Positions 15,928 through 38,089 of a DNA stretch of 57,191 nt are shown here, in pieces. The notes below the pieces were generated by a model. That model searched no databases. It was given only the letters and a program-made list of their open reading frames with translations, and was not told the origin of the DNA. The stretch lies in contig CALWVS010000013.1 of the NCBI GenBank assembly GCA_944385095.1, positions 1 to 57,191 on the forward strand, in the 5' to 3' direction. Within the stretch, counting starts at the first letter, position 1, and every line of letters starts with the position of its first letter. The translations under genes and the position numbers were made by a program. The stretch comes from an uncultured Oscillospiraceae bacterium (GTDB lineage: Bacteria; Bacillota; Clostridia; Oscillospirales; Oscillospiraceae).

Positions 15928-17700
15928 ATGCAAAAACAGTTATATCCCTTTGTCAAAAATCGCTACTTCCAGAAAAAGCGAATGCGGGCAGTGGATTTTG
16001 AGCGAGATCAGGCATTTGCTGATCATAAGCTTTCTTTTTTGAATCATTGGGTATTTGGTACTGGAGTTGCCTTTGGTTTGGGTGTACAGCGCATTGATTC
16101 TGACTCCCTGCTGGTAGAGCCTGGTTTAGCCATTGATGCCCAAGGACGCTATCTGATTGTGGATGAACCTGCCATCTGTCGTTTGCGTACTTTAGACGGC
16201 TTCCGTGCACTTCAGGGTGAGAATGCATTGTTGTGGCTCTGTTATCAGGAGGAACTTCTGGACCCTATGTTTGTAACTGACAGTGAGGGACAAAGTGCAC
16301 AGTATGCAGTAGCCAAGGAGCGTTTTTCCTTCTCTCTCAGTGAGGAGTCTATGCTCCCTCTCTCCCCTGTTGAGCGTGTTCTTCTGTCTGAACATATCTT
16401 GTATGAAGATGATGAACTTCGAGTGGTTCAAAGTATTCCTCGCATCTTATCTGCCACAGAATCCTGTCAGGTACAACTCTATATACAGTGTTTCAGTTTG
16501 GAGTCACTGGAACTAAATCTGTACTACTCCCCCAATATTCCCGGATTTTCAGGAACAGATGGTCAACCACCAAAACTGAACCTACAACTCCGTGTAGAGA
16601 AAGGAGAAACCAAAATTCCCCTCTGGTTACAGCCTGTTCAACCTGCTCAGGTGACATGGATTGTACTGCATGAAACTGGATTTTCATTAGAGAAACGTGG
16701 TGTGTGCTTTGGGCTGCAAAACCCATTTCAAGAGGAGTTTCCCACAGTGAATGGCAGTATCTTTTCTGCTTTTGCTGCCAAATTGAATGGTTTGTCTCCA
16801 CAAGAATTGTGGGACAACCAGCCACTGGGGGTCCCTATCGCGGGAATCAAAATGATTCGCTATGATGACAAGGTATTGTTAGATGATATTGTTCCATTGG
16901 GTGTAAGGCATCAGGCATCCGTTCCAATTCTACATGAATGTCTACGTCGGGTGTTGGAGCGATTTCAAGAAAACCCCAATATAATCCATCCAGATTGTGA
17001 ACAGCCCCAATCTGGTGCTATAGGCAATGGAGAACCCCATCCATTACCTACATCGCAAGTGACCACCGGCTCTGTGGTTCTCAACACAGCAGGGCACACA
17101 AAGACTGGCAGCATCCTAACCTCAGATGAGATTATCCACATGCTTGGTCCTGGTATGGTATATGTGTCGTTTGGGATTGAGCACATTTACCCAGTGGTCA
17201 ACAGTGAACAGAACCGAACAGACTTGCTGTTGGGAGATGTCTCTCTGTTTGAACAGGTCAGTGGAAGCTATGATAGAGATTTTGATCGGGGTGTGCGTGT
17301 TCACCCAGAGAAAGGTACCTTTGAGCTGGCAGTGCGCCCACGGACAGACCTGCATCAATCCAGTATTCGATTGCGTTGGTTTGCATGGAAACCTACAGAA
17401 AATATCCAAGCAACTGTTCCAAATGGGGTGCTCTGTCGACTGGAACCTGACATCATCCATGTGCACCCTGGAGCGATTGTAGCATTCACCCCTATCTTTA
17501 CTGGTGGAACTGGTGGTACCTGTGACTTCTTCGTAGAGGGAAAACGCAATGGGGTTATTACCCGTGACGGTATTTTTACTGCACCCAATCGGGCATGTCT
17601 CTGCCAGGTTCATGCTCAAGTACGGGGAAAACCAGAGGAGCGTGTACATGCCTTCATCATTGTAGAGGTGGAGGAAGGCAATGAACAAAACAGTGTTTGA
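15928..17700 (+). CDS. CIS-associated protein with RYF..DFE N-terminal domain and Ig-like C-terminus
   Basis: 590 residues, first gene of the CIS operon. Residues 8-75 carry NRYFQKKRMRAVDFERDQ, then HWVFGTGVAFGLGV and LVEPGLAIDAQGRYLIV. This block recurs as the N-terminus of proteins in CIS clusters of other Gram-positives and is probably baseplate- or structure-associated. This is recalled from memory of the families, not searched. The middle (about 180-500) is beta-rich. The last 85 residues look like an Ig-like domain (VHPGAIVAFTPIFTGGTG then GVITRDGIFTAPN), as in bacterial surface and tail proteins. No signal peptide or membrane span. It overlaps the next gene by 20 bp. The function is unproven. 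Confidence 0.6.
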   Translation: MQKQLYPFVKNRYFQKKRMRAVDFERDQAFADHKLSFLNHWVFGTGVAFGLGVQRIDSDSLLVEPGLAIDAQGRYLIVDEPAICRLRTLDGFRALQGENALLWLCYQEELLDPMFVTDSEGQSAQYAVAKERFSFSLSEESMLPLSPVERVLLSEHILYEDDELRVVQSIPRILSATESCQVQLYIQCFSLESLELNLYYSPNIPGFSGTDGQPPKLNLQLRVEKGETKIPLWLQPVQPAQVTWIVLHETGFSLEKRGVCFGLQNPFQEEFPTVNGSIFSAFAAKLNGLSPQELWDNQPLGVPIAGIKMIRYDDKVLLDDIVPLGVRHQASVPILHECLRRVLERFQENPNIIHPDCEQPQSGAIGNGEPHPLPTSQVTTGSVVLNTAGHTKTGSILTSDEIIHMLGPGMVYVSFGIEHIYPVVNSEQNRTDLLLGDVSLFEQVSGSYDRDFDRGVRVHPEKGTFELAVRPRTDLHQSSIRLRWFAWKPTENIQATVPNGVLCRLEPDIIHVHPGAIVAFTPIFTGGTGGTCDFFVEGKRNGVITRDGIFTAPNRACLCQVHAQVRGKPEERVHAFIIVEVEEGNEQNSV

Positions 17701-18505
17701 CCATCTTCGGGTCATCCGCAAAGAGTGTGAAAGTAAAATTGGGGATTCAGATGTCTGCGAATCCCCAGATGGACAGTTGCATATTCGACTGCAAATCAAA
17801 GATAGCCGATGTCAGAAAGAGTATCTTTCCAACCAATCTGTGGTACCAGTTCGTCTGAATCAAGGGATATTGGAAGTGCTTCTTCCATACCAAGAAGGGA
17901 GTCTACTGGGTCCATGGCTGGAACAGAAACCAAATCTTGCGCAACGACGGGATGCCTGTCTGTCGCTCATTGCACAATGCCTAAACTTACAGTCTGCTCC
18001 CTGTGTCCTTGCTCTGTCTGCACAGCTGAAAAACCTGCGGTTTATAGAAAAGTCTGCTTGTCTGCAACTATTACCAAACTGGAGCGAATGGTACCCCAAT
18101 GCCCACCCAGGAAACGATGTAGCCGCTGTAGCAATGATATGCAGACACATTCTGACAGATGGTTATTCAATGTTGCAAACACATCAGTATCCCTATGAAT
18201 TGCAGCTATTCTGCATCCGGCAGCGGTGGGATGACTACCAGACATGGGGGCAGCTGCAACAGGATTTGTCAGCAATCCCAGACTGTCTGTTGCCACTGAC
18301 AAACTCGTATCAGGTCTGGGCAAAACGCTTTATGACATGGGTCAAACAGTGGATAAAGCCAGCAACTTGTCTTGTTGTGGCACTTCTTGTTGTAGCTGCA
18401 CTGATTTCATTATGGAATGTGTACCAGAACTGGAAAAACCAGAACAATGAATCATCATGGTCTGGAATGGTCTCTGTGGGAGACCAGAAACTCGATGATG
18501 GTTAA
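17681..18505 (+). CDS. Single-span membrane protein with degenerate kinase-like domain (EssB/YukC-like logic)
   Basis: 274 residues. Residues 60-200 follow the layout of a protein-kinase C-lobe with the catalytic residues gone: YQEGSLLGPWLEQKPNLAQR, the ACLSLIAQCLNL helix, CVLALSAQLKNLRF where HRDLKPxN would be, then NDVAAVAMICRHIL and YPYELQLFCIRQRWDD..WGQLQQDL. A hydrophobic helix follows at about 228-247 with a short outside tail of 27 residues. Pseudokinase plus one span is the architecture of EssB/YukC in type VII secretion. Here it would be a membrane partner of the CIS. Similarity is by pattern only. Alternative: a lineage-specific anchor of other fold. Confidence 0.5.
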   Translation: MNKTVFDHLRVIRKECESKIGDSDVCESPDGQLHIRLQIKDSRCQKEYLSNQSVVPVRLNQGILEVLLPYQEGSLLGPWLEQKPNLAQRRDACLSLIAQCLNLQSAPCVLALSAQLKNLRFIEKSACLQLLPNWSEWYPNAHPGNDVAAVAMICRHILTDGYSMLQTHQYPYELQLFCIRQRWDDYQTWGQLQQDLSAIPDCLLPLTNSYQVWAKRFMTWVKQWIKPATCLVVALLVVAALISLWNVYQNWKNQNNESSWSGMVSVGDQKLDDG

Positions 18506-18516
18506 GGAGGTACAGG

Positions 18517-21174
18517 ATGAGGGAAACATGGAAAAAATGGTTTCCAAGCGTTAGCAAAATTGTCTTACGGGAACTACTGCTCCTCCTGTGTGCTGTAGCA
18601 ATGGGACTGGGATGGGGTGTATATCAATCTCCTAAATATCTGCCCACCATGAGTGGCAATGTTTACGCCATGGACCCCACTGGAGATTCCCTGTTTATGG
18701 TGCTTTCCAAAGAATCCAACAATAGTCTGGTCCATGTGGATTACCGTGGCAATCTGCTCCACTATGCTGTGACAGAAACCAATCAGGCATTTGAAAATCT
18801 GGTGGTACTGGATGACACCATTTATGCTGTGTTGACCACCTATGACACAGGAAACAGCACACAGGAACTGGTCTCTCTCTCTATGGAACATACTTCTATG
18901 CATGCAAATGTGTTGCTGGATTTATCCACAGTGGAGGGGGCAGTTGACATTACCTGGAGTGGTGCCTACCTGCCTCTGGATGAAGAACCAAAGGAACTTT
19001 GCCTCGGTGGAATAGATGATGCTGGAAATGGATATCTGCTCCACTGGGACCTGAATTCTGAGCACCCAAGGTTGGAACCAATCCTTGACGGTGAAAAAAT
19101 CTATAAACTGAACTATGTGGATGATAACCATTATGTATGGATTGACGCTGAAGGGCAATTATGTCAATCTGTAAATGGGAGATTGCGACGCAACCTTTTT
19201 GCATCAACAGATGACAGTACCCCTTACCACATATCGACCTGTGCAAATCGGGTACTGGTATCCGACAGCCTCAGTGGCAATATCTATGAAATTACCTCAG
19301 AAGGCACTGCCCATATAACTTGGTATGGCACAGAAACCATTCAAAACACAGATTATCAGTATGAGGACATAGCAATCTACACCACCTACCTAGATGACGA
19401 CAACCAAATTCAGGTAATAGCACTGTGTCATGATGGTGACTCCAATGTAGTCATTGGACCTGATGGAATCATCAAAGAACTGCATATGGGCTCTAATACT
19501 GTTTATATGGTCATTGGCTATTCTTTACCATTTATGCTGTTCTGTTTTGTACTATTGACAGTTCTGGCAGAGGTGCTTCGTGCAGCATTCCGCTCCCCAC
19601 GAATGGCGGTACGGCTGGCTATGTGCGAGCTAATCATGGCTGGTGTCATGTTGGGTGCTGTACTGGGCATTCAATATAGCTTCTATCAGGACACCATTCA
19701 GGAAGATGCCCAGCAAAAACTTCAACTTCTGGGCGGTAATCTTGCAGATGTACTGAGTGCAGGTGGTGTCATGAAAAACGAAGAAGTGGGGCAACTTGCC
19801 ACAGAAGTCTTGCAACGGACACAAAACAGCCATCAATATACTGTAAATGTGATATGGCTCAACAGGAAAGCTCTTCCCATCATTGGTTATGACAATACCA
19901 TTCCTGTAAACTATGCTGTGGAGGATGTGAAAAGTCGAGACTATGATACCACCATTCGCAGCTTTCTGACACATGGAAAAGAGAATGAACTCAGGGAGAT
20001 CCGCAATGCTCTTAATGTGAAGGACTTTATTTATATACAGCGAATTACACAGACAAACGCCAATACACAGGAATATTGGGTGGGTTGTGTTACAGTATCC
20101 CAGAGTGAGCGTGATATTCTGGCTGGTCGTACCAGCTTTTGGCTGCAGATGGCTCCTGTTTTGATTGCGTGTCCCTTTTTATTTGCACTTCTGATTTTCA
20201 TTACTTGGCGATTGCTTCACCCTCTGGGCATTGTACGAGAGTCTCTTGAGGAATTTTATGATACTGGTGGCGGTAATCAGATGGAGCTAACCCATATACC
20301 AAAAACAGAACTTTATCAGGTAGGGTTGGTTTTTAACGAATTATCTCATCAAACAAAGGTACAGCTAAATTCGCTCCATCACATCAATGGAGCCTACGCC
20401 CGTCTCGTGCCTGACTGCTTGTGCCAAATGCTCCACAAAGTGGATATTTTGTCCCTTGTACCTGGGGACTATCAGATTGTGGATGGTGCCCTACTGATTC
20501 TGGTTCCAGAAACCCCTGCCCGAACAGCGAAGGATTTGGAGCGGCTTTTTGCCCCAGCAGCGGAGCAAATTGTTATGCAAGGTGGCATGATTATGGACTA
20601 TGATGAGGGGTTAGGTGCTGTAACAGCACTGTTCAGCAATGCAAGATGCGCTGAGGTCTGTGCCCAAGAAACCATCTTCAACTACCAGGATACCCACACT
20701 GGTCGTGTTATGGTTACAATGATTCAGGATTCTGTGGAGTTGGGGGTCTTTGGTTCTGACCACCATCTTTACCCTGTGGCAGTCTCCGGTTCACTCCACC
20801 GTCGGCAGGAGGTACTCTCACTCATGTTGGAATTTGGGGCTGTATTGGTATTCAGCAAACCTGTGGAACAGCCCAATCTCCGGCTTTTAGGTTGGGACGG
20901 AGAAGCCAACTACTATGAAGATCCTGCATTTCGCCCCAGCAGTTGGCGCAGTCAGTGGGTAAAAGCATCCTCTATCTGGAATGAGGCTATCACATTGTTT
21001 CGCCAGCAACAGTTTGCCCAGTCTATGCGACGCTTTGCTCAGTTTCTGCGACTTCTGCCAGAGGACAACGCCGCACGCTGGTATCTGTTTCGCTGTGAAT
21101 CCCTGCGGGATATGGACCACACCAAGCCACTGGATACTGGTCTTCTGTTTCACTGGAGGGATCAATATGGATAA
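18517..21174 (+). CDS. Four-span membrane sensor with degenerate class III cyclase domain and TPR-like tail
   Basis: 885 residues. Span 1 about 14-36. An exterior beta-rich sensor (37-325) with propeller-like strands. Spans about 327-352 and 363-385, a second exterior region (about 388-540, Cache-like position), and span 4 about 543-565. The cytoplasmic part (620-780) matches the class III nucleotidyl cyclase outline: AYARLVPDCLCQML, the IVMQGGMIMDYDEGLGAV region where cyclases read hGG.i.k..GD..mA.F, and a second half with ELGVFGSDHHLYPVAVSG. The two metal Asp positions are not kept (LLILVPET and DEGLG), so it is probably inactive. The C-terminus (818-865) resembles the TPR-like end of bacterial cyclases (P-E-D-N-A-A-R). 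GGAGG upstream, 11 bp after the kinase-like gene. Its role may be to sense the envelope state and signal to the CIS. Confidence 0.55.
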   Translation: MRETWKKWFPSVSKIVLRELLLLLCAVAMGLGWGVYQSPKYLPTMSGNVYAMDPTGDSLFMVLSKESNNSLVHVDYRGNLLHYAVTETNQAFENLVVLDDTIYAVLTTYDTGNSTQELVSLSMEHTSMHANVLLDLSTVEGAVDITWSGAYLPLDEEPKELCLGGIDDAGNGYLLHWDLNSEHPRLEPILDGEKIYKLNYVDDNHYVWIDAEGQLCQSVNGRLRRNLFASTDDSTPYHISTCANRVLVSDSLSGNIYEITSEGTAHITWYGTETIQNTDYQYEDIAIYTTYLDDDNQIQVIALCHDGDSNVVIGPDGIIKELHMGSNTVYMVIGYSLPFMLFCFVLLTVLAEVLRAAFRSPRMAVRLAMCELIMAGVMLGAVLGIQYSFYQDTIQEDAQQKLQLLGGNLADVLSAGGVMKNEEVGQLATEVLQRTQNSHQYTVNVIWLNRKALPIIGYDNTIPVNYAVEDVKSRDYDTTIRSFLTHGKENELREIRNALNVKDFIYIQRITQTNANTQEYWVGCVTVSQSERDILAGRTSFWLQMAPVLIACPFLFALLIFITWRLLHPLGIVRESLEEFYDTGGGNQMELTHIPKTELYQVGLVFNELSHQTKVQLNSLHHINGAYARLVPDCLCQMLHKVDILSLVPGDYQIVDGALLILVPETPARTAKDLERLFAPAAEQIVMQGGMIMDYDEGLGAVTALFSNARCAEVCAQETIFNYQDTHTGRVMVTMIQDSVELGVFGSDHHLYPVAVSGSLHRRQEVLSLMLEFGAVLVFSKPVEQPNLRLLGWDGEANYYEDPAFRPSSWRSQWVKASSIWNEAITLFRQQQFAQSMRRFAQFLRLLPEDNAARWYLFRCESLRDMDHTKPLDTGLLFHWRDQYG

Positions 21175-22711
21175 AACCGTCTTTTCAAAATTCATTCACT
21201 CTCCCAGAGACTATTGGAAAATCGGACCTATTTTTATTTGGAAATGGTTGCTTCTGGTCTTAATTGGGGTTGTTGCTGTCCTTGTTCTACAGGTCTTTGG
21301 GCTTCCAGATGGTTTTTTGTTTTGTCCCACTGCTGAGGTTCCTTCCTATCGTTATGATGACCCTGCACTCCAAAAAATCTCCGGTGTAGTACAAGTCCTA
21401 GATTACCAAGGACGTATCCGGTATGAGGGGGAAGTGTCCTCTGGCTCTTTCACTGGTACAGGCAAAGTCTATGACACAAATGGCTTATTGGTCTATGATG
21501 GACCAGTGGTAGATGGTGTATACGAAGGGGAAGATGCCAAGGTATATTCTGATGGAATCCTGATTTATGAAGGTGCAATGGCTGCCAATCTTTATGAGGG
21601 TGCAGGGCGACGCACTGATCCCATAAGTGGTGAGGTCAGTGAAGGGCAATTTCTGGCTGGTGTTTTTGAAGGAGAAGGTCAACAGTTTCATGCCAATGGT
21701 ACCTTGATTCGTACTGGTACTTTTGTACAGGAATTGCTCAATGGGGAGGGGCAAGAATACTCCTCTAATGGTGTGCTACTGCGTGAAGGTACTTTTCAAG
21801 ATGGTCTGCTGCATGGTACAGGCACACAATACACTTCCAATGGTGTTCTAGCATATAAAGGAGAATTCTATACTGGCTTTTACCATGGACAGGGCGCACT
21901 CTATGATACCCTGAATGAAGTGCTGGTTTATGAAGGTGCATTCGTCTGGGGTAAAGCAACGGGATTGGGTCGAATCTACCACCCCAGTGGACAGCTTCTT
22001 TATGAAGGGCAAGTCTTCGATGGGCAACCCAGAGCGGATGCGTTTCTTGGGCTATCTCTGATAGATGTGGAATCTGCTTTCAAAGAACATTGGCTCCTCT
22101 ACTCCTATGAAGGTACCACTGCCTTTGTCTATCCCTATTTCCACCTTATGTTTATCACCCAATTTCCTGTACAACTGGTATCCCCAAGTCAACAGGAGGC
22201 AAAGGTGGAGCAGGAACGACAGGAACTTTTGGAAGCCATTACCACACAGATAGGGCAAAATCAGTCATTGGATGCACCAGCCTCTCAGGTTTCCTTGATA
22301 GAGGAATCCAATATAGGTGCAACAAAAAACATTCTGGCTGCACAATCAATTTGTGGTATAGAATTGTCTCAGGATACAGTCAAATCGGATGTGCTGATTT
22401 CTGAGGCACTATCTTATGGTGCTCCTTTGGCTGGTGTTCCCCAGCCTGAGTCTGGTCAAGTTTCAAGTATACATAAGACAGGATGGCATGAGTGGTTCAG
22501 TGATTATGCAATGGACCAGATGCTCGTTGGTGCTGTGGCTTTGCAAACTGGCCCCTATATCTATGAGTTTACTGCTCTTACCACTGCCTCTACACAAGAC
22601 AGCGACTGTTATCTGGCAAATGACCGAGGTGTAGAATCTACAACTGTATACCGAAGCTGGAAAGACAATCCCATATGGTATCAGAGTGCAGTCAGGAGGG
22701 ATAACCCATGA
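21167..22711 (+). CDS. Membrane-anchored MORN-repeat protein
   Basis: 514 residues from the ATG at 21167 (GGAGGG upstream), overlapping the previous gene by 8 bp. The longer open frame lies inside that gene. One membrane span at about 24-45 (WLLLVLIGVVAVLVL). Residues 80-290 hold about nine MORN-like repeats of 22-24 residues with the pattern YEGe...G...G.G..y...G.l (for example LHGTGTQYTSNGVLAYKG). The C-terminal 220 residues are unclassified, with a Gln/Glu-rich helix at about 340-365. MORN repeats bind membranes or partner proteins, and here they probably face outside the cell. Toxin-immunity and cell-wall roles are other options. The coupling to CIS genes on both sides argues for a part of the apparatus. 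Confidence 0.65.
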   Translation: MDKTVFSKFIHSPRDYWKIGPIFIWKWLLLVLIGVVAVLVLQVFGLPDGFLFCPTAEVPSYRYDDPALQKISGVVQVLDYQGRIRYEGEVSSGSFTGTGKVYDTNGLLVYDGPVVDGVYEGEDAKVYSDGILIYEGAMAANLYEGAGRRTDPISGEVSEGQFLAGVFEGEGQQFHANGTLIRTGTFVQELLNGEGQEYSSNGVLLREGTFQDGLLHGTGTQYTSNGVLAYKGEFYTGFYHGQGALYDTLNEVLVYEGAFVWGKATGLGRIYHPSGQLLYEGQVFDGQPRADAFLGLSLIDVESAFKEHWLLYSYEGTTAFVYPYFHLMFITQFPVQLVSPSQQEAKVEQERQELLEAITTQIGQNQSLDAPASQVSLIEESNIGATKNILAAQSICGIELSQDTVKSDVLISEALSYGAPLAGVPQPESGQVSSIHKTGWHEWFSDYAMDQMLVGAVALQTGPYIYEFTALTTASTQDSDCYLANDRGVESTTVYRSWKDNPIWYQSAVRRDNP

Positions 22712-23277
22712 GTCAAGAGCCAATTTTTATAAAAGCAGTCCATATCTTGTTGCAGTATCTACAGGGTGAACTAGTCCCAACCATACTCAACTCCCCAGAC
22801 ATGATTAAGCTGACCTATCCCGGTCAGGAGGATGAGTTCCGACTGGGTCTGTTTCTCTACGACCTGGAGGAGGTTCGACCAAATGGACCACCTGGGATGA
22901 CCCAACTCAGCGAGGATACACGACGGCACCCAGATTTATCCCTCATAATGCGGCTTATGGTCTTTGCCAACCGAAATGTTGCATTCAACAGTATGGAGAC
23001 AGCAGATGAACTGCTTATGCTGGAAGCAGTATATCGTGCTGTACACAGTGCAACAAAACTGGAATTGGATGGTCAAAATTTACAGCTTCGTTTTTTACCC
23101 ATAACTCAAAGTGAAAAAATCTCTCTTTGGCAATCCATTGGTTCTCCCCTCCAGTCAGCTGTCTATATTTCCTTGGAGCCCATCCCTGTCCCCAGTACCC
23201 GCATTCAGCGAATCCCACCCATTAGGGAAGTGGAAATTCATACCAATCGGATGGGAAGGGGGCTTGCAAGCCTATGA
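22708..23277 (+). CDS. CIS tail terminator-like protein, DUF4255 (Pvc16/Afp16-like)
   Basis: 189 residues. The DUF4255 outline is clear: an N-terminal helix (FIKAVHILLQYLQGELV), YDLEEVRPNGPP, the PDLSLIMRLMVFANR strand pair, and the C-terminal EKISLWQSIGSPLQSAVYISLEPIPV. In Afp/PVC particles this protein caps the tube and sheath and attaches to the sheath. ATGA overlap with the MORN gene and again with the next gene shows tight coupling. Confidence 0.85.
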   Translation: MSQEPIFIKAVHILLQYLQGELVPTILNSPDMIKLTYPGQEDEFRLGLFLYDLEEVRPNGPPGMTQLSEDTRRHPDLSLIMRLMVFANRNVAFNSMETADELLMLEAVYRAVHSATKLELDGQNLQLRFLPITQSEKISLWQSIGSPLQSAVYISLEPIPVPSTRIQRIPPIREVEIHTNRMGRGLASL

Positions 23278-23660
23278 GTTTTTTTCTTTGCACTGGAGCA
23301 ACCTTGCAGTGTTCCTTTGGTGCTGCTCCTGTGCCGTTCAGTCCCCTGCCCACTCCTTGTGTTTTTACAGGTGGACGCCCAATGGGGGTAATGACTGACG
23401 TGACTCCCATGATCAACATACCAACCTTTGGGATGTGCAGCAGTCTTTCAAATCCCACAGTAGCCAGTGCCACAACAGCAGCATTGGGTGTACTAACCCC
23501 TATGCCCTGTATCCCTGCCCCTTCTGGTTCCTGGCTCATGTCTTCACAAAAGGTATTGATTGGTGGACAGCCAGCAATTACCGATGACAGTCAACTGATG
23601 TGTGTTTGGGGCGGTCAGATTTCTGTCCAGTTTGCTGGTCAAACCAGTGTACTGCTATAA
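23274..23660 (+). CDS. PAAR-like spike tip protein, DUF4280
   Basis: 128 residues. It fits the DUF4280/PAAR-like family: ATLQCSFG at the N-terminus, GGRPMGVMTDVTPMINIPTFGMC, SLSNPTVASATTAALG, TPMPCIPAP, and VLIGGQPAITDDSQLMCVWGGQISV. Such proteins cap the spike trimer and sharpen the tip, with Cys/His residues often binding metal (Cys at 6, 13, 29, 54, 79 and 110). It overlaps the tail-terminator gene by 4 bp, although its physical place is the other end of the particle. Confidence 0.85.
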   Translation: MSFFLCTGATLQCSFGAAPVPFSPLPTPCVFTGGRPMGVMTDVTPMINIPTFGMCSSLSNPTVASATTAALGVLTPMPCIPAPSGSWLMSSQKVLIGGQPAITDDSQLMCVWGGQISVQFAGQTSVLL

Positions 23661-23689
23661 CAAAAACAATCCGAAAGAGGGTAACGAAA

Positions 23690-25405: not shown

Positions 25406-25424
25406 TTGATTGGATGTGTATGAA

Positions 25425-25859
25425 ATGGCAGAGATTATCTACCCCTACAAAAAATATAACTATAAGGTGCTTCTGGACAATACAGAGGAAGCTGGGTTCA
25501 GTGAAGTTTCTGCCCCCGATATTACCTCTGATCCTGTGGAGTACCGTGAGGGCAACATGACCGGCAGAACCCCTGGTAAGCAGCCAGGTCTTATGAAATA
25601 CTCCAATGTGACCTTAAAGCGTGGCACCACCGATTCACAAGTGTTTGTCACATGGATGAAGGACATTCAAGATGGAAAGGCTACTCGAAAAACAGTGGTC
25701 ATTACCCTGATGGATGACGAGATGAATGAGGTGGCTTCTTGGCAGCTAGAGAAGTGCTGGCCCACCAAGTACACCGCTCCCGATTTCAATTCCACCAGCA
25801 ATGAGGTTGCCATTGAAAGTTTAGAACTGGTGACAGAAGGTGTCACCCGAATCAAATAA
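25425..25859 (+). CDS. CIS inner tube protein (gp19-like), copy 1
   Basis: 144 residues from ATG 25425, 19 bp after the sheath. A T4 gp19/Hcp-type beta barrel: YKKYNYKVLLDNTEEAGFSEVSA, the central VEYREGNMTGRTPGKQPGLMKY and the C-terminal NEVAIESLELVTEGVTRI. Hexameric rings of this protein build the tube inside the sheath. Its length and the EYREG..pg.Kl.G pattern match Afp1/Pvc1. A TTG start 15 bp earlier is possible but has no better ribosome binding site. Confidence 0.92.
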   Translation: MAEIIYPYKKYNYKVLLDNTEEAGFSEVSAPDITSDPVEYREGNMTGRTPGKQPGLMKYSNVTLKRGTTDSQVFVTWMKDIQDGKATRKTVVITLMDDEMNEVASWQLEKCWPTKYTAPDFNSTSNEVAIESLELVTEGVTRIK

Positions 25860-26420: not shown

Positions 26421-26437
26421 CAGGAGTTGGAGCAGCC

Positions 26438-26872: not shown

Positions 26873-26885
26873 GTATATTGGGCTG

Positions 26886-30182: not shown

Positions 30183-30234
30183 TGGTTTCATATCATCCAA
30201 TCAGAATAGCAACTGAGAAAGGTGGTGTGTGGCT

Positions 30235-30603
30235 ATGTCAGCAATGACATTTCCCATGAAACTGGATGCCGGTTTGGGTCGATTCCGACGGATGACTGAT
30301 GAGGAGGAAATTGCCCAGTCTGTTCGCCTGATTTTATCTACAAACCGAGGTGAGCGACCATACCGCCCCAAATTTGGTTCCAACTTGGTACAATTTGCCT
30401 TTGAGCCTGTGACAACCACATTGAAGCACCAGCTTCAGATTGAAATCATCTCCACTCTACAGGTGTGGGAACCACGTATCTGGAACATTCAGGTGGATTT
30501 TATACCAGAGCAAAACAATGGCACCCTAATTGCACAGATTTCCTATCAAATTCTGAGCAATGGACAGAGGGATCAGGTCCATATTCCTGTACAAACCACC
30601 TGA
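30235..30603 (+). CDS. Baseplate wedge protein gp25/GpW-like
   Basis: 122 residues from ATG 30235 (AAAGGTGG upstream). The upstream GTG at 30229 lies closer to the ribosome binding site and is less likely. gp25 family: RRMTDEEEIAQSVRLILSTNRGERPYRPKFGSNLVQFAFEP, the lysozyme-like wedge fold with the conserved t..GErp..p.fG motif that starts sheath assembly. Confidence 0.93.
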   Translation: MSAMTFPMKLDAGLGRFRRMTDEEEIAQSVRLILSTNRGERPYRPKFGSNLVQFAFEPVTTTLKHQLQIEIISTLQVWEPRIWNIQVDFIPEQNNGTLIAQISYQILSNGQRDQVHIPVQTT

Positions 30604-30644
30604 ATGATTCTTAAAATATATTATTTTGGTGAGGAGGAATGGGT

Positions 30645-33155
30645 ATGAACGATTTTTGGACACAGTTTGAATTGTATGCCCGCTCCTATCTCCCTGACTG
30701 GCAGTATCAACCAGGTGGTTCAGAGCTGGAAGCTGCATTGATGACAGCCCTAGGTGAAATGCTAGAAGATTCCAGACATCGTCTGGAGCATCTGCCAGAA
30801 AAACATCTGCGAGAATATTTGTCCACTTGGTACGATGCGCTACAAAAAGAGGAACCTGGCTATGTTTATGTCAATCTGACCGCTCCACACAGTATGGTGC
30901 TCCCAAAAGGAACCCAATTTTATCAATCCGGTGATGGTACTAAGCTCTGGGAAACCACAATGGAGACCTGTGTTGAAACCAGCAAACTATGTGAGCAGAT
31001 TGTGTCCAGTGGCAACTTGGGAAAGCTGGTTGCACTGTCAGTACCAACAAAAGAAACACCAAGTAAACTGTTCGATTTCCACCTGCCCGGAATACAGCAG
31101 CGTGAAGTACGGTTTCGACATTCATTTGCGTTCACATCTCAAGCCGGTTGTCAGGTAGGTTTAAATCTGGAACATGCATCTCATACACTATTATCCTTTC
31201 TCTGTGATCCTGCTTGCTCTCTCTGGTATTTGGAATTGGAATATGAAACCATACCTCTGAAGCAGCCAACACAGATCAATCATTCATTACAGTTTCACCT
31301 TCCATCTTCCAAAAACATGCCCGCTTCCCTGCTTGTCAAGGTTGTAGATGGAAAGATACCTCCTTCCACATCTATTCAAAGGGCAACTGTAGAAACTGTG
31401 CGTACTCCAAATGAACAGATACTACTTTTGACAGAGGATGGACCTGTTCACAGTCAAAATTATGTCCCTTTTGGCAACAAACTAATGCAATGGAATCTCT
31501 GTTATGTTTCCTGTCCCGATGCTCTAACTTTGCCTGGTGCCAAAGTAACACTCTCCTGGCTGCAATCCTACCAGACACAAGAGGACTTGCTTCCTGGTAT
31601 GGAACAAAAGCCAGAATATCACCCTATCATGCTCCACATGCCCCAAACACCTCCCACCATTCGGGATGTTTGGGCAGATCAAGTATTATGGGAATATTGG
31701 GATGGTCTCACCTGGCGTATCGTGCCAGGAACGGAAAACTGTACACAGATGTTCTCCAATTTTAGAGAAACGCAAACTGTACAGCAGGAGGTGAACATTT
31801 TGTGGCCGTTGGATGCCCAGCCATGTATGGTACAAGGAATCAGTACCCACTGGCTGCGTTGGCGGCTGCTCTCCTGTGAAGGCTTTGGATGGCTCCCAGT
31901 CCGCTATCATGTTCCGGTTCTCTCCCATATCTCCATAAATGCCTCACTTTTCAATGAAGAAACAACTGTGGAACAGCTCTGTGGTGTTGAGCACTCTTTC
32001 CATCGTCTTACCAGTACCCCAAAATTGCTGTTCCCATCCATTACGCAAAAACAGGACTGTTGGTGGCTGGGATTTGATACACCACCCAGTGGAGCATCCT
32101 TTCATCTCTACTTAACCCTTCGTGACCATATATTAGGCGGGCAATTGACCGTTTATGAGGCAACTTCCCATACTGGAGCACGTCAGTTGTCCCTAAGTGA
32201 TGGTACAAATGGTCTCTCTCATAGTGGAATCATATCCCTAAGTGGATTTCAGGGGCAAAAAACCATTCAATATGGGATAGAGTGTTGGTGGCTCTGTTTT
32301 CGGGAGGAATCTGGTGTCTTTCAGAATGGTAGTCAAAAGCCTGTTTTGACAGGCTTATTCTGTGGCGCAGTTCTTCTTCGTGCAATGCAGGTGGGGGACT
32401 GTGTTGCAGGAGAATCGTTTATGCCACTTCAAGGTGGTACCATCAGTGGATATGCTGTGTCAGACTGCTTTGGTGGTGTGTTACAGGAGTCAGACTCCGA
32501 GGTGCAGTGCCGCCTTCTGGGTGAGCGTCACCACCTTGACCGTATTGTATCTGCCACCGACGCTGAACAACTCATCTGTACTCATATCCGAAATGTTGTA
32601 CAGGTGTGTTGTGTCCCCAATAAAACTGTTCTCCAGATTGGTATTCTCATGCGAGATGTGAGACACCATGAGGTATCATTTCAACAACAAAAACCTGTCA
32701 TTGAACAGCTGATCAAGGTGAAAAGTGCTCTGCTCACCCTTGGAATGGATATGGAAGTGCGGGAACCTTCTTTTTACCCAATCCATGTAATGGTGTGGAT
32801 TGAGCTACACAATGGTAGTGAATTTTCAGATGTCAAATATCAAATTGAGCAGATTCTAAACCAGTTCTTTCACCCAGTCATTGGTAACTTTGGTGGTACA
32901 GGCTGGAGAATGGGAGAGCTCCCCACCTTGGAACAAATCCGTATCTTTCTGCAATCTGCTATACCAAATATTTTTTTGACAGAACTGGTCATCAGTACCA
33001 CCACACCAGATGGAACAGAACAAAATCCGGTTTCTGTCTATGACCCTTTTGCTCTACCAATAGAGGGAACCTATACAATTTACACCATAGAAAAGGGGGG
33101 CATGCAGTATGATACCCATAGACTTAAATACAACCAATCAAAAGGGCCTCTATGA
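30645..33155 (+). CDS. Baseplate assembly protein J-like, large (Afp11/Pvc11-like)
   Basis: 836 residues from ATG 30645, GAGGAGG seven bases upstream. The N-terminus (WQYQPGGSELEAALMTALGEMLEDSRHRLEHLPEKHL) is the helical start of gpJ/gp6-like wedge proteins. GYVYVNLTAPHSMVLPKGTQF is the conserved leader strand. The C-terminal third (EVSFQQQKPVIEQLIKVKSALLTLGMDMEVREPSFYPIHVMVWIEL, split in DVKYQIEQILNQFFHPVIGN) is the gpJ C-terminal domain. The long beta-rich middle is typical of CIS J proteins. Its 3' end overlaps the next gene by 47 bp. Confidence 0.85.
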   Translation: MNDFWTQFELYARSYLPDWQYQPGGSELEAALMTALGEMLEDSRHRLEHLPEKHLREYLSTWYDALQKEEPGYVYVNLTAPHSMVLPKGTQFYQSGDGTKLWETTMETCVETSKLCEQIVSSGNLGKLVALSVPTKETPSKLFDFHLPGIQQREVRFRHSFAFTSQAGCQVGLNLEHASHTLLSFLCDPACSLWYLELEYETIPLKQPTQINHSLQFHLPSSKNMPASLLVKVVDGKIPPSTSIQRATVETVRTPNEQILLLTEDGPVHSQNYVPFGNKLMQWNLCYVSCPDALTLPGAKVTLSWLQSYQTQEDLLPGMEQKPEYHPIMLHMPQTPPTIRDVWADQVLWEYWDGLTWRIVPGTENCTQMFSNFRETQTVQQEVNILWPLDAQPCMVQGISTHWLRWRLLSCEGFGWLPVRYHVPVLSHISINASLFNEETTVEQLCGVEHSFHRLTSTPKLLFPSITQKQDCWWLGFDTPPSGASFHLYLTLRDHILGGQLTVYEATSHTGARQLSLSDGTNGLSHSGIISLSGFQGQKTIQYGIECWWLCFREESGVFQNGSQKPVLTGLFCGAVLLRAMQVGDCVAGESFMPLQGGTISGYAVSDCFGGVLQESDSEVQCRLLGERHHLDRIVSATDAEQLICTHIRNVVQVCCVPNKTVLQIGILMRDVRHHEVSFQQQKPVIEQLIKVKSALLTLGMDMEVREPSFYPIHVMVWIELHNGSEFSDVKYQIEQILNQFFHPVIGNFGGTGWRMGELPTLEQIRIFLQSAIPNIFLTELVISTTTPDGTEQNPVSVYDPFALPIEGTYTIYTIEKGGMQYDTHRLKYNQSKGPL

Positions 33156-35019
33156 ACGGGCATGCCGTCGGATGTCAGAGTTAGTACCTGGTTGGTCGGA
33201 TGCAATCCCAAGTGATCCTGCTGTGGTAATTCTGGAGCTAGCCTCTCAACTATCCAATATGCAAAATTATAAATGGAATCTGGTGGGACCTGAGCACTAT
33301 CTTGCCTATTTGAAATTGTTGGGAGGAACCCGTAGGATGCTGACACCTGCCTCCCTGTTGGCCAGAACCCTAGGAGGTATAAATCCCTATAAAGGGCAGC
33401 GTTACTGGGTGGACGGTGTACCTTATGAGGTGATAGAAACGCGTCACATGGAAGCTGAACTACAGTTCGTCCATATAGAGTGTGGAAATGAGATATTAAA
33501 CTGGGAATCTGGCAGAACCATAACATTAAATGGCGAAACGGTTGGTATCCATATATCCTTTACCACAGAACTTCCAGCCAAAAAGCCTATCCGAATCTGG
33601 TGTGGCTTGGAACCTGAACAAGGTCGGGTTCCACCAGCACCTGACACGCCACCACCTGTCATTTTGAAGGCACAGACGTCAATAAAAGGAGTCTGGCAGA
33701 ATGTCTCTCTGGAAGATAGCACCTGTGGTTTATTACAGAGTGGATACTGGACCATTTCATCTGATGATCCCTTTGTTTCCCTTCAAATCAAACTACATGG
33801 ACAGTTGGAGGGAACTCCCCGTATTCAGCAACTGGTTTTGGAGCCTGTCCATCTGGAGCAATGTTTGACCAGAAGCACAATGGTTGACCTTCCACCGCCT
33901 TTTCTTCTTCCGAAAGGCTGGATAGGCAGTCGGGTGCTTCGCTACTTTCTGCCATCTGACAAGGACGGATGGCAGGAAGCTCCCTTCTTATTTGCTCAAA
34001 ACGGTTGTGTCGTCGGTTGGACAGAGAAACCACCAGCCACCATTCGGGTTATTGCTTCAGAACCGGACTTTACCTTTGAATTTGCCATTCAGCCCACAGC
34101 CTGTGAGGAAATCAAACTGGATGAGGAAGGAATTCTTCCAGAACGTCTGAAAGTTATGGTGCAGGAAAATGGGGTTTGGTATGACTGTCCCATTACCTTA
34201 CCCGATCCTCATCATACCCTTTCCCGTGGCTGTCGATGGGATGAAATACAAAACGCACTTCGTTTTGGAGATGGTAGAGATTATGAGATTCCTACTGGTG
34301 GAGCCGTCCTAATTGCCGGTTGCACCATTACTTTAGGAGAGAAAGGAAATGGTGCTACTGGTATCTTGCAGCAAGGTGACAGCACACTGTCAGTATTGGC
34401 ACCTGCTTCTGGTGGCTGTGAGCGAGAAACTGTATATGATGCCTTTCGCCGTGTAGCAAAAGAACAACGTGTGCCGCTGCGAGCTGTGACCCTTGCAGAT
34501 TATGAGATGCTGGCACATCAGACACCAGGACTGGCACTGGGACAGGTACATGCTGTCAGCCATCAATCTCAGGGACAGCAGAATGCTGGTGTCATCCTAT
34601 TCGCCCGCCCCCTCTCTCCAAACCCACTGGCTGTTTTGACCTCATGGCAACGGGACCGACTACAGGATTGGTTGGAGCAATATCGAATGATTGGTGTACC
34701 AGTATCGGTTCAGATTCCTCGTTATCTTCCACTTGCGGTTCATGTTACTTTGCGAGTCAGTGAGATGATTGATGAACAGACCATCCGAACTGTAATAGTG
34801 GCACAGACTGACGGGATTACAGGTCCTGTAGGGTTTGGTACAAAAATCTCCAGTACGGGAATCACCGCTGCACTGAGCAAGCTGGAGCATGTTCTTTCTG
34901 TGACTACACTGGAAATACACCCTTTAACTGGTGGAGTAAATTGCAGACAGGATGGGACCATCCATCTCAAGTCGGATATGCTACCCTATTTGAAAGAACT
35001 AAAGGTAAACCAAATTTAA
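33109..35019 (+). CDS. Baseplate assembly protein J-like, second copy (Afp12/Pvc12-like)
   Basis: 636 residues. N-terminus: LYERACRRMSELVPGWSDA with PSDPAVVILELASQLSNMQNY, the standard opening of CIS J proteins. LRFGDGRDYEIPTGG in the middle is the FGDG..G..P motif shared by gpJ proteins. The C-terminal half holds TLADYEMLAHQTPGLALGQVHAV and PVSVQIPRYLPLAVHVTLRV. It forms the baseplate wedge with the larger copy upstream. The overlapping start (ATG 33109, GGGGGG upstream) suggests translational coupling. Confidence 0.88.
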   Translation: MIPIDLNTTNQKGLYERACRRMSELVPGWSDAIPSDPAVVILELASQLSNMQNYKWNLVGPEHYLAYLKLLGGTRRMLTPASLLARTLGGINPYKGQRYWVDGVPYEVIETRHMEAELQFVHIECGNEILNWESGRTITLNGETVGIHISFTTELPAKKPIRIWCGLEPEQGRVPPAPDTPPPVILKAQTSIKGVWQNVSLEDSTCGLLQSGYWTISSDDPFVSLQIKLHGQLEGTPRIQQLVLEPVHLEQCLTRSTMVDLPPPFLLPKGWIGSRVLRYFLPSDKDGWQEAPFLFAQNGCVVGWTEKPPATIRVIASEPDFTFEFAIQPTACEEIKLDEEGILPERLKVMVQENGVWYDCPITLPDPHHTLSRGCRWDEIQNALRFGDGRDYEIPTGGAVLIAGCTITLGEKGNGATGILQQGDSTLSVLAPASGGCERETVYDAFRRVAKEQRVPLRAVTLADYEMLAHQTPGLALGQVHAVSHQSQGQQNAGVILFARPLSPNPLAVLTSWQRDRLQDWLEQYRMIGVPVSVQIPRYLPLAVHVTLRVSEMIDEQTIRTVIVAQTDGITGPVGFGTKISSTGITAALSKLEHVLSVTTLEIHPLTGGVNCRQDGTIHLKSDMLPYLKELKVNQI

Positions 35020-35076
35020 CCAGATAAACAGTCATTGACCCTTTTCGTGGCTTGTGTACAAAGGTGGTAGAAGAAT

Positions 35077-36018
35077 ATGGAACAACAATTGCGAAGATAC
35101 CGCTCAAATCGAGACCTGAGACAATGTGGTGTTTTTGAGGGCACAAGGTATCGTTCTCAATGGTATCGTGGAACCATGAACGGGATGGAGTGGCTGCGCC
35201 TTTCATTGGAAGGTGTAACCGCTGCAAAAGTATGTGTTTTTACAACCGATGCTCCCCTTGAAGAATGGGACACATCCGCAGAACCAGTTCTGAAGCGGGA
35301 AGCCACAGACCTCAGTCTCTATGGTGTGTATGGTCTTTATTTGGCTTTTACAGTGGAGCCAGCAGATTGTCTACAGGGATTCACTTTGTTATTTCCAGGT
35401 TATTCTATTGACATTGGGCTACCCCTTGTTATGCAGAATGATACCACACTGCGCCAATTTTTGGCAGTTTATCAGTCTGTATATATGGATACCAACCAAC
35501 TGGCTGCTCGATTTCCGGGACGTTTGAATCCTTATGATGCAGCAACACTTCCTGACCTGAGATTTTGGGTCGGTGCTGCACAATGGATGTGGGACACCGT
35601 TCAGTTACCAGAACTTTTGGCATCTGCCCCCCTATTAAATCGGATGCGGGGTACCCGACGAGGATTGGAACAACTCATCAAATTGGTAACTGGAGGTCAT
35701 GGGGAAATCATAGAAAACTTTCAATGGCGCACTCTGCCACTGAATTTAGAAGAACACACAAACTGCACCAAGCTCTATGGGGGACAACATGCAAATATAA
35801 TGGTGCTGCTTCCCGCAAACATTACTTCTGCAACTTTGCGCTTTTTAGAATATATTTTGGATGACTTCATTCCAATTGGTGAAACATACAGCATATTCCA
35901 GCTTCAAGAGGGCGTAGAGCTGGATGGTCACTTTTATATGGATGTCAATACCATACTACAGGAACCACCATCTGCTGCTATGGATGAATGTGATCTGGAT
36001 GATCTGATTTTGGAGTAA
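35077..36018 (+). CDS. Phage tail protein I-like baseplate wedge component
   Basis: 313 residues. The C-terminal part is gpI-like: FLAVYQSVYMDTNQLAARFPGRLNPYDA, LRFWVGAAQWMWD, LNRMRGTRRGLEQLIKLVTGG, the r.RGT..gLe..i.l.tG signature. The N-terminal 130 residues are a beta-rich module. It ends in an acidic tail (MDECDLDDLILE). It completes the gp25-J-J-I wedge set. AAGGTGG lies upstream, 57 bp after the J gene. Confidence 0.85.
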   Translation: MEQQLRRYRSNRDLRQCGVFEGTRYRSQWYRGTMNGMEWLRLSLEGVTAAKVCVFTTDAPLEEWDTSAEPVLKREATDLSLYGVYGLYLAFTVEPADCLQGFTLLFPGYSIDIGLPLVMQNDTTLRQFLAVYQSVYMDTNQLAARFPGRLNPYDAATLPDLRFWVGAAQWMWDTVQLPELLASAPLLNRMRGTRRGLEQLIKLVTGGHGEIIENFQWRTLPLNLEEHTNCTKLYGGQHANIMVLLPANITSATLRFLEYILDDFIPIGETYSIFQLQEGVELDGHFYMDVNTILQEPPSAAMDECDLDDLILE

Positions 36019-36033
36019 AGTGAGGTGAGCAGT

Positions 36034-37977
36034 ATGGCTGGTTGGTCCAATAATTCTGCGTGTATTCTTGATTTTCTCAAACTATTTCAGACCCTTTCTG
36101 CTGAGCATGTAAATTTGTCTATCTGCGCAACACAGTGGCAGGAACTGCAAAATACAGAACTGGTTACACCAGATACCATCCTATTGGCACCCCGCACTTT
36201 GAGAGAACATTTTACATTGGATTTATGGGAATATTTGTTGGTCATGGCTGCCTTGACCATAGAAATGGACAACGACCTTCGTACCACCTTTCGCAGTCAA
36301 TATGGTCTCACATTTCCTACCATAGAGTATGGCTTGAAGCTGATTTCCCCTCTTTGCCCAAATCGTGTGGAAATTCTGGCTGACCTCAACGGTCTCAATA
36401 CATTGACTGGTTTGCTTTTGACCACTTCTCAACAGACGGCTTACCCCTTGGAGCGTCCACTAATTCTGTGTCGGGCAGTTGTCTCTTTTCTGACTGGTCT
36501 GTCTCTGCCAGATTTACATAGCATCCAGCCACTCCTGCCTGAACGCTCCACTGTGTATCTGCCCATCCATACTTGGGCACTGGAACAGGTGCAACTCTGG
36601 TACCAAACCGGTACAGAATACCCCCTCTATCTCCTTGGAGCTGTAGGCTGTGGTCGCCGTACATTGGTCAAACAAGCCTGCGGGGGTGCTGTATGTCTGG
36701 AATTTCAGGGGCTGACTGAGCTTTCCGCTTTGGATCGGGACCACCTGTTTCGAGAGGCTGCCATATTATCCAAGTTACTCTCTATCCCAATCTGTGCAGT
36801 CTATTCCCATACCAGTCCAGCAACAGCAATACAAGCACTTCAGACATTGTGCAAAAAATTTCACTTGCCATTGGTGATTGTGAGTGATTCAGAAGATTCT
36901 TTATCCCATTCCGCCGAGGTGATTCGTCTGCCATCTCAATTGACCTCTCAGGAGCGGGACCAAGTATGGCACACCATGCTTCCCACAGCAGCACCTGATT
37001 CCATCCCCAATGGTTCTATGCATGTTGGTGCTGTGTTGGAGACTGCCACCTTGGCACAACGATATGCAACCGCCAATGAACACCATAATGTACAGCGAGA
37101 GGATACCATCCACGCTTTGCGTCATCGTAGCAGTGCACTTGTCTATGGTCTGCATTATGAGCCGTATGCCTCTTTGAACGACATGGTGCTTTCAGAATCC
37201 ATACTGAAACAGATTCATCAAATCTGTACAGCTGCTCAATGTGGACCTCACCTGACCCACTGGGGCATCCCCTATGAACGTGAGGGAGTGACTGCTGTTT
37301 TTCATGGTCCATCTGGCACAGGCAAAACCATGGCAGCCAACGCCATCGCCAGAGAACTTGGGATGCCGCTGCTGCATGCAGACCTCTCACAGATTATGGA
37401 CAAATATGTGGGCGAAACAGAAAAGCACCTTGGTCAGCTCATGCGCTGTGCCAGAGAAAATCGGTGTGTTCTTTTATTCGATGAGGCTGACGCTCTATTT
37501 GGAAAACGTACTTCTGTGTCCACTGGACATGACAAATTCGCCAACCTGTCTACCTCTTACCTTCTTCAGGAAATTGAACAGTATGATGGTGTGGCACTCC
37601 TATCTACCAATCTTCTCAATCATTTTGATGATGCATTTCTGCGCCGTTTGCAGTATATTGTTCGATTTTCTATGCCAGATGCCAAACTTCGTGAGCAACT
37701 GTGGCGGCGTGCGCTGCCATCTGACCGACTGGAAGACAATATCCCATTTGCTGAACTTGCCCAGGCAGAACTAAGCCCTGCTCGAATCAATGGCGTTGCC
37801 CGAACTGCCGCAATCGCCGCTATGTGTGAAGGAAAAGAGCGCATCAACACTGCCATGATACTCTGTGCACTGCGTCTGGAACTTGAGAAAAACGGAAAGG
37901 CATTGCCCAGGGAACTGGGGGCTCTGTTGATAAAACCACAGCAAGAGGAAATTCAAACTACAGTAAAGTTCATATAA
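36034..37977 (+). CDS. CIS AAA+ ATPase (Afp15/Pvc15-like)
   Basis: 647 residues from ATG 36034 (GTGAGGTG upstream). A helical N-terminal part is followed by a degenerate P-loop (LLGAVGCGRRTLVKQ, about 205-219, GRRT for GKT). A full AAA+ module follows at about 370-600: Walker A GPSGTGKTMAA (about 425), Walker B CVLLFDEADALFG (about 478), sensor 1 LLSTN, and arginine finger region DAFLRRLQYIVRF. CIS clusters of the Afp/PVC type nearly always carry this ATPase, whose role is unclear (assembly or sheath remodelling). It is the last structural gene. Confidence 0.9.
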   Translation: MAGWSNNSACILDFLKLFQTLSAEHVNLSICATQWQELQNTELVTPDTILLAPRTLREHFTLDLWEYLLVMAALTIEMDNDLRTTFRSQYGLTFPTIEYGLKLISPLCPNRVEILADLNGLNTLTGLLLTTSQQTAYPLERPLILCRAVVSFLTGLSLPDLHSIQPLLPERSTVYLPIHTWALEQVQLWYQTGTEYPLYLLGAVGCGRRTLVKQACGGAVCLEFQGLTELSALDRDHLFREAAILSKLLSIPICAVYSHTSPATAIQALQTLCKKFHLPLVIVSDSEDSLSHSAEVIRLPSQLTSQERDQVWHTMLPTAAPDSIPNGSMHVGAVLETATLAQRYATANEHHNVQREDTIHALRHRSSALVYGLHYEPYASLNDMVLSESILKQIHQICTAAQCGPHLTHWGIPYEREGVTAVFHGPSGTGKTMAANAIARELGMPLLHADLSQIMDKYVGETEKHLGQLMRCARENRCVLLFDEADALFGKRTSVSTGHDKFANLSTSYLLQEIEQYDGVALLSTNLLNHFDDAFLRRLQYIVRFSMPDAKLREQLWRRALPSDRLEDNIPFAELAQAELSPARINGVARTAAIAAMCEGKERINTAMILCALRLELEKNGKALPRELGALLIKPQQEEIQTTVKFI

Positions 37978-38089
37978 ATCTGGAATTTCTTGTGTAGTAG
38001 TTTGTTTTCTTAGTATCTGACTTTGCATCTGATGCCATAAAATAAATTCAGAGATTTCATCCATTTTTGCAGGAGAGAGGGGGATTTGC

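Follow-up and report, generated by a model that had tools for sequence, protein, structure and literature searches.

Is the contractile injection system (CIS) encoded by an uncultured, probably gut-dwelling Oscillospiraceae bacterium set free by its producer, or does it work at the producer's own membrane? The question arises from an operon (15928-37977, + strand) on contig CALWVS010000013.1, the 57,191-nucleotide stretch analysed here (the window), which comes from a genome assembly of 2.43 Mb. A sequence-only reading of this DNA had noticed three consecutive genes with predicted spans inside the operon and proposed that their products anchor or trigger the particle. We find that these genes encode a pseudokinase (kin), a pseudocyclase (cyc) and a MORN-repeat protein (MORN), and that this module accompanies the CIS of a Bacillota clade. 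We lean toward the view that the baseplate of these CIS works at the producer's cytoplasmic membrane, as a somewhat probable explanation.

Three membrane proteins encoded within the operon

The block that raises the question consists of the following genes.

15928..17700, + strand: g590, CIS13-type baseplate-anchor N-terminus, weakly immunoglobulin (Ig)/macroglobulin-like middle, weakly Big-like C-terminus, no transmembrane (TM) span
17681..18505, + strand: kin, predicted bitopic pseudokinase, TM 229-247, short outer tail
18517..21174, + strand: cyc, predicted class III pseudocyclase, spans 15-33, 332-350, 367-385 and 545-563
21167..22711, + strand: MORN protein, short N-terminus, TM 28-46, MORN repeats (Pfam MORN_2, E 8.2e-12)

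The starts of kin, cyc and MORN (17681, 18517 and 21167) head open frames, each with a Shine-Dalgarno-like sequence upstream. The genes had been described as overlapping by a few bases and running into the tail terminator and sheath genes, and overlap or near-contact is indeed seen throughout. Overlaps of 20 nt (g590/kin), 8 nt (cyc/MORN), 4 nt (MORN/cap16, the terminator gene) and 4 nt (cap16/PAAR-like gene) are interrupted by gaps of 11 nt (kin/cyc) and 29 nt (PAAR-like gene/sheath). Promoter- and terminator-like patterns between 15500 and 27000 were no more frequent than in shuffled sequence, so that co-transcription is argued from gene spacing alone. The peak 19-residue hydropathy mean reaches 2.45 in kin, 2.48 in cyc and 2.98 in MORN and is at most 1.61 in the remaining 17 of the 20 window proteins; by this measure clear TM spans occur in exactly the three proteins for which they had been predicted. 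The single span of MORN lies just behind its N-terminus, which suggests that the repeats face the outside of the cell. A MORN match was present in 8/8 aligned homologues. The host genome gave no Omp85 match (7 of 14 control genomes have one), which fits the monoderm host that had been supposed.

Loss of catalytic residues in kin and cyc

A Pfam search with kin alone found no family, and an earlier 5-sequence profile found nothing significant in the PDB. A 14-sequence profile matched NEK1 (E 4.6e-4), and the AF2 model of kin matched kinases, with YukC (6z0f) at Foldseek rank 37. The HRD Asp and the DFG Asp are retained in 0 of 14 sequences. Judged by its fold matches and lost catalytic Asp residues, kin is a pseudokinase, as had been suspected. 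Its layout resembles that of EssB/YukC minus the outer domain. In several aligned sequences the short tail behind the span ends in an IGT/VGT/IGN-like motif.

The cyc protein is laid out as two outer regions (about 300 and 160 residues), a HAMP-like linker, a cyclase domain and an end resembling tetratricopeptide repeats (TPR). Its profile matched class III cyclases of the PDB (E 2.3e-7). Among homologues, Pfam found HAMP in 9/21 and Guanylate_cyc in 2/21. The HAMP and TPR assignments come from homologues, neither passing threshold in the window copy, where HAMP and Guanylate_cyc were not matched at E better than 0.1. The outer regions matched nothing in Pfam; by eye they may be a propeller and a Cache-like sensor. 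Charges around the spans favour TM1-TM2 and TM3-TM4 as the outer regions with the cyclase inside, a pattern that is not clear for every span.

Catalytic columns were read off the PDB alignments, for residues that we take to be the catalytic set (metal Asp1, metal Asp2, Lys, Asn and Arg); the count excludes L124 (genome G467) as well as any domain having over 90 gaps. In 58 distinct cyc domains from CIS-bearing genomes, metal Asp1 is retained in 0/58, hence both Asp in 0/58, while Asp2 persists in 8, Lys in 7, Asn in 10 and Arg in 5. The eight relatives from CIS-free genomes keep Asp1 in 7/8, Asp2 in 6/8 and both in 6/8. Traces of the cyclase motifs are still visible in Paenibacillus copies. 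Since the metal Asp residues are lost in the CIS-linked copies while selection is kept, the CIS branch appears to have lost catalysis while being maintained. The earlier term degenerate cyclase thus proved apt: cyc is a class III cyclase by domain likeness without the two metal-binding Asp residues, a predicted pseudocyclase, and its lost metal sites speak against a role as a maker of cyclic AMP (cAMP).

Several neighbours of the cyc family deserve separate mention. Sheath-free relatives with both metal Asp residues occur in genus g169 (L115, L116, L119) and family f10 (L118, L121, L123) and are candidate active cyclases of similar architecture. A "cyc" match at 2e-10 near the G557 locus proved to be a HAMP-SpoIIE-type protein (domains named by eye). 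In L031 the frame with a weak "cyc" match is the one that matches a SpoIIE query. The weak match of Angelakisella massiliensis (G559) is real, for between its PAAR and AAA genes the CIS locus holds two adjacent, divergent cyc genes (L264:3112-8495). In L027 a cyc-like outer part is fused to a transporter-like part (by eye).

The module accompanies the sheath across Bacillota

A survey of CIS loci in Clostridia had been suggested as a check, and it bore the co-occurrence out. The samples include the window genome itself and partly overlap with the named loci (for example, the positions of G350 equal those of G542, and those of G235 equal those of G582). Among 150 genomes of the family, cyc was found in 7, the sheath in 7 and both in 6; the two odd ones are G068, with its sheath on a 7-kb contig that starts inside the MORN gene, and G011, with its cyc on a contig that starts inside a baseplate gene. 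In the class sample (391 genomes) the sheath profile matched 22, of which 8 are of extracellular CIS (eCIS) type (at least 564 bits) and 14 are weaker, probably phage-type. cyc lies on the sheath contig within 25 kb in 8/8 of the former, and the cyc matches include none of the 14 latter genomes. Ignoring matches to the HAMP part alone, cyc reached at least 75 bits in 19 class genomes; 11 of the 383 others thus carry a cyc-like gene without an eCIS-type sheath (three from genus g169, seven small genomes of family f10, and G467). The phylum sample (299 genomes) contained three sheaths above 850 bits, all accompanied by cyc. In addition, G668 reads g590-kin-MORN-cap16-x-cyc on a 7.4-kb contig, and in G839 cyc adjoins a sheath-like fragment.

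The named loci, which are the 80 best of at least 570 sheath relatives, include Oscillospiraceae, Lachnospiraceae, Paenibacillus, Brevibacillus and Cohnella. cyc lay within the examined stretch of 22/80, a count limited by flank length and excluding the weak L031 match. Whole-genome searches covered fifty of the 80, mostly loci that were cyc-negative in their stretch together with 7 positive ones; of the other 30, 15 have cyc in the locus and 15 lie outside the whole-genome count (10 on contigs shorter than 10 kb; L090 is included). The searched genomes held the sheath in 50/50, cyc in 48/50 and MORN in 47/50. By a hand count from the listed positions, cyc shares the sheath contig in 34/48: in 32 of these it lies within 40 kb, and in the two Paenibacillus genomes G561 and G562 the distance is 80-90 kb. 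Another contig holds cyc in 14/48, three being Paenibacillus isolates (G564, G567, G571). The misses are G581, whose contig starts some 2 kb ahead of the sheath, G558 (MORN only) and G557.

Gene order varies around a recurring block. kin was found in 16 loci (the window, L036, L038, L078, L090, L017, L023, L025, L027, L160, L162, L168, L169, L171, L261 and L264), directly behind g590 in 16/16; a 147-residue minus-strand match in L089 (E 0.0014) was excluded. The block stands before the sheath in the window and in Oscillibacter valericigenes, and behind the Tail_P2_I-like gene, before PAAR and AAA, in Flavonifractor An82, KH1P17, G580, G011 and G046. cyc follows PAAR in Petralouisia muris and A. 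massiliensis, the latter locus reading TailI-g590-kin-MORN-cap16-PAAR, two cyc genes and AAA. Module parts are split in Paenibacillus elgii, Brevibacillus porteri, G561 and G731. The mix of pseudokinase, cyclase-like and MORN genes, singled out earlier as a candidate for an undescribed system, is therefore not peculiar to the window; it recurs. In those Bacilli loci that were read, the genes are split and no kin was found.

Across 49 loci, the distances between sheaths correlate strongly with those between cyc copies (Mantel r 0.889; 0 of 5000 permutations as high, the best being 0.192), shared host phylogeny accounting for part of this. Ratios of nonsynonymous to synonymous substitution (dN/dS) in close pairs range from 0.07 to 0.28 in cyc and from 0.10 to 0.27 in MORN; the one kin pair gave 0.29, and the sheath, wherever a value was computed, 0.04-0.15. 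On its distribution and substitution rates, the module regularly accompanies the CIS clade and is under purifying selection. A chance neighbourhood in the window is rejected by recurrence of the block in many species. A phage-borne module was likewise discarded: at E 1e-4, neither kin nor cyc nor MORN had a match in any of the 80 listed viral-contig sheath loci (limited flanks). The same 80 gave two weak matches to the g590 profile, and a g590 scan of viral contigs found no relative among 8 candidate stretches.

One subclade has a TolC/OEP-family protein near MORN (PF02321, E 4.5e-16 in L171:8779-13679, O. valericigenes An890; also L021, L018 and L155:14143-15876, P. elgii), to which its Clostridia add a bitopic coiled-coil protein of about 900 residues. 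Records of loci matching the OEP query number 29, several of them from one genome, with no match in the window; such a protein adjoining a CIS in monoderms is odd. HAMP-SpoIIE (PP2C-type) phosphatases lie near the AAA gene, by Pfam in L162:12908-15001 and by similarity in L025:919-2961, L027:15194-16855 and L019:2595-4487.

g590, a putative adaptor

Residues 8-139 of g590 match the NCBIfam CIS13_fam model (E 9e-19; 68 bits, the cut-off of 370 not being reached). Against All3314, the crown protein of the thylakoid-anchored CIS (tCIS) of Anabaena, the match is in register but weak (E 0.74, and 0.12 with a 16-sequence profile). Eighteen g590-type proteins were found in the loci read, one per locus, and 16 aligned copies measure 524-602 residues. 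Their mean column identity is 0.50 (residues 1-100), 0.31 (100-200), 0.17 (200-300), 0.28 (300-370), 0.34 (370-470), 0.25 (470-520) and 0.41 (520-590). Stretches of the C-terminus thus match residues 100-200 in conservation, which speaks for a conserved partner. The structure model is of low confidence and its middle weakly resembles C3/macroglobulin folds; neither TssK nor 7b5h was among the structure matches listed, an absence that is not evidence.

In 12 clusters the g590 gene stands behind the Tail_P2_I-like gene. This is the place of tail fibres and, behind the baseplate genes, also that of CisA in Streptomyces (PMC12237407). In the available part of a paper that defines the eBAP3 anchor (PMC12923769), such anchors are spread in Bacillota and Actinobacteriota and are described with crown-like shoulders, Tail_P2_I adaptors and a likeness to TssG/TssK. 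In the type VI secretion system (T6SS), the TssK shoulder sits on the baseplate and its head binds the membrane complex, as the accessible text of PMC6300606 has it. We propose g590 as a baseplate-to-membrane adaptor.

A proposed docking mechanism and its precedents

The anchor domain of g590 would bind the baseplate, and its conserved C-terminal part would be offered, TssK-like, to a membrane complex rather than to a foreign receptor. Two pseudoenzymes and a rod would compose that complex. kin would be a membrane pseudokinase scaffold like EssB/YukC; cyc would act as the receptor, its sensor regions lying outside and its dead cyclase and TPR-like end inside; and MORN, which is bitopic, would extend its repeats into the wall. 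An outside cue sensed by cyc would be relayed through kin and g590 to sheath release, by conformation and not by cAMP.

Parts of this arrangement have precedents, described here as far as the accessible text of each source goes. EssB/YukC of the type VIIb secretion system and TraF of a Gram-positive type IV secretion system also join a cytoplasmic pseudokinase to one TM span (220-243 in YukC) and are hubs in the secretion machines of monoderms (PMC9600267, PMC13037476). kin differs in its short outer tail and its setting in a CIS operon. PF10140, the EssB/YukC family, had no match listed among the 14 kin members and a single one, beneath cut-off, across 118 class genomes. The T6SS of haloarchaea (Halogeometricum borinquense CIS) shares an eCIS-type cluster, the lack of an outer membrane and an adjoining clade-conserved membrane protein; that protein, however, is a single 6-TM protein of another kind, and no pseudokinase, pseudocyclase or MORN protein is noted in the part of PMC11566945 available. 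In monoderm Streptomyces, a membrane protein gene right after the baseplate genes is needed for firing, but CisA, its product, is a single bitopic protein, disordered at the N-terminus and carrying an outer domain of substrate-binding-like type (PMC12237407). The Anabaena tCIS offers the parallel of an eCIS-like particle held at a membrane (PMC8894136), its crown protein being weakly resembled by the g590 N-terminus; the tail-fibre-like Cis13 of that system has a TM helix, whereas g590 has none and separate membrane proteins are proposed. Tail fibres anchored by eBAP3 likewise carry a baseplate-anchor N-terminus in Bacillota loci (PMC12923769), from which g590 differs in its partly conserved C-terminus and co-encoded membrane proteins. 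Taken together, the TssK analogy, the EssB and TraF precedents and the three membrane-linked CIS make docking or triggering at the producer's own membrane the best reading by analogy. Among the papers listed in the literature searched, from which many subscription papers are absent, we found no description of the module (supplements not covered; the gene families may be listed elsewhere) and no paper joining contractile injection with a pseudokinase.

Alternative explanations

A released extracellular particle, with g590 as a short target-binding fibre and the membrane proteins as a signalling set for expression or release, is an unlikely alternative. The HAMP-SpoIIE phosphatases near several clusters and the LuxR-type regulator adjoining the window operon suit it, as do the eBAP3 fibres of Bacillota and a Paenibacillus fibre whose folds are C3b-like and haemagglutinin-like; grafted onto the Photorhabdus virulence cassette (PVC), the receptor-binding part of that fibre bound THP-1 cells, according to the available part of PMC12923769; the middle of g590 is weakly like C3/macroglobulin folds. 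Yet the g590 C-terminus is partly conserved across classes and steady in length, unlike a diversifying fibre tip, a mere regulator would have no need of genes interleaved, as they are in many species, with those of cap and baseplate, and cyc lacks metal sites. It is still less probable that the CIS acts inside its producer as a cell-death or developmental device, staying cytoplasmic until stress sensed by cyc brings firing at the membrane. CisA sets the precedent of contraction needing a membrane protein outside the particle in a monoderm (PMC12237407, accessible part), and g590 shares its gene place, but the module is far larger than CisA, and no death effector was identified, no search aimed at one having been made. 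Very improbable, in our estimate, is passive linkage, in which a membrane signalling cassette settled beside an old CIS and was kept by vertical descent. Organismal phylogeny alone would yield part of the Mantel correlation, cyc relatives occur without this CIS, and G557 does without the module; against this, the block is retained although the operon is rotated between species, both metal sites are lost throughout only in copies from CIS-bearing genomes, and Bacilli retain cyc and MORN even with the genes split.

Docking at the producer's membrane has its own difficulties, and the following observations weigh against it. Physical docking, topology, a trigger role and firing direction are what we infer. 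The available text of PMC12923769 (2026) takes such anchored Bacillota proteins as target- or receptor-binding fibres, and the Ig-like folds named there may also fit the weak g590 model. No kin turned up in any Bacilli locus that was read; the loci without a kin match are those of P. elgii, B. porteri, G561, G731, G006 and G557. Relatives carrying the structural genes without the module had been named as the refuting observation; most relatives keep the module, with deviations. In Acetatifactor sp. SC0310 (G557) g590 is followed directly by cap16-PAAR-sheath, with no kin, cyc or MORN in the locus, and a search of the whole genome found no cyc and no MORN; this looks like a real exception. L090 reads g590-kin-MORN, with no cyc between kin and MORN or elsewhere in the locus. 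Both count against a strict requirement for the module. No cyc match was found in six phylum genomes with weaker sheath matches (G789, G682, G769, G784, G588, G751), the first three being more distant relatives. The operon, spans, pseudoenzyme status, co-inheritance and purifying selection are read from the sequences themselves.

A fuller version of the docking model would be a T6SS-like membrane-docked machine native to Bacillota, built from a phage-fibre-derived adaptor, two dead enzymes and a MORN rod. TolC/OEP and coiled-coil bitopic proteins would make a trans-wall conduit in one subclade, docking would be the usual CIS mode of the clade, and many "eCIS" of Clostridia and Paenibacillus would be misnamed. 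We offer this whole tentatively, as a possibility somewhat less likely than not.

Structural genes and surroundings

From 15928 to 37977 the order is g590, kin, cyc, MORN and then the following genes.

22708..23277, + strand: cap16, tail terminator (Pvc16_N, Pfam E 2e-10)
23274..23660, + strand: DUF4280 PAAR-like protein (Pfam E 3.7e-27)
23690..25405, + strand: sheath (Pfam E 2.4e-23)
25410..25859, + strand: inner tube 1 (Pfam E 1.5e-42)
25876..26244, + strand: 122-residue conserved CIS protein with zinc-ribbon-like end, found again in most sheath-bearing loci read
26417..26872, + strand: tube 2 (Pfam E 1.3e-12)
26844..27791, + strand: 315-residue protein, placed between tube 2 and CIS_tube
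27792..28361, + strand: CIS_tube protein (Pfam E 1.1e-18)
28371..29432, + strand: hub, GPD-like (Pfam E 2.6e-4, beneath cut-off)
29445..30182, + strand: spike, VgrG/gp5-like (Pfam match beneath cut-off)
30229..30603, + strand: gp25 wedge (Pfam E 1.1e-18)
30639..33155, + strand: baseplate J-like 1 (by position; no Pfam or PHROGs match)
33109..35019, + strand: baseplate J-like 2 (PHROGs baseplate wedge, E 2.8e-6)
35077..36018, + strand: Tail_P2_I-like protein (Pfam E 0.022, beneath cut-off; position)
36025..37977, + strand: AAA ATPase (Pfam E 4.6e-26)
38090..40420, + strand: MalT/LuxR-type regulator adjoining the operon (TPR_MalT 3.9e-13, GerE 5.1e-9)

The full structural set reported by the sequence-only reading is present, with Pvc16_N, DUF4280, the sheath, two gp19-type tubes, CIS_tube, gp25, AAA and MORN above the Pfam cut-off, the hub, spike and Tail_P2_I matches beneath it, and J1 named by position alone. 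The second tube protein, the 315-residue protein and the regulator are additions to it. Sheath, tube, CIS_tube, Pvc16 cap, gp25 and AAA within one cluster mark the system as eCIS-type, and the closest sheath among the named loci is that of an Oscillibacter metagenome-assembled genome (75%). The 315-residue protein occupies the slot of proteins of about 1000-1660 residues in many relatives and could be a length or cargo protein. Elsewhere in the window (2640-6182, - strand), a 726-residue frame followed by two of about 115 and one of 231 residues perhaps encodes surface- or pilus-type proteins (by eye).

Implications

The membrane complex of the T6SS is TssJLM. If docking is true, these Bacillota would possess a membrane complex made of recognised domains other than TssJLM, and ordinary gut and soil bacteria of monoderm build would be capable of contractile injection that depends on contact. 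Supposedly free injectors may then be tied to, or fired from, their own cell membrane. Named species for study include O. valericigenes An890, Flavonifractor sp. An82, P. muris and A. massiliensis, along with P. elgii and B. porteri, and kin, cyc and MORN offer a genetic handle on how the CIS of Bacillota are placed and fired.

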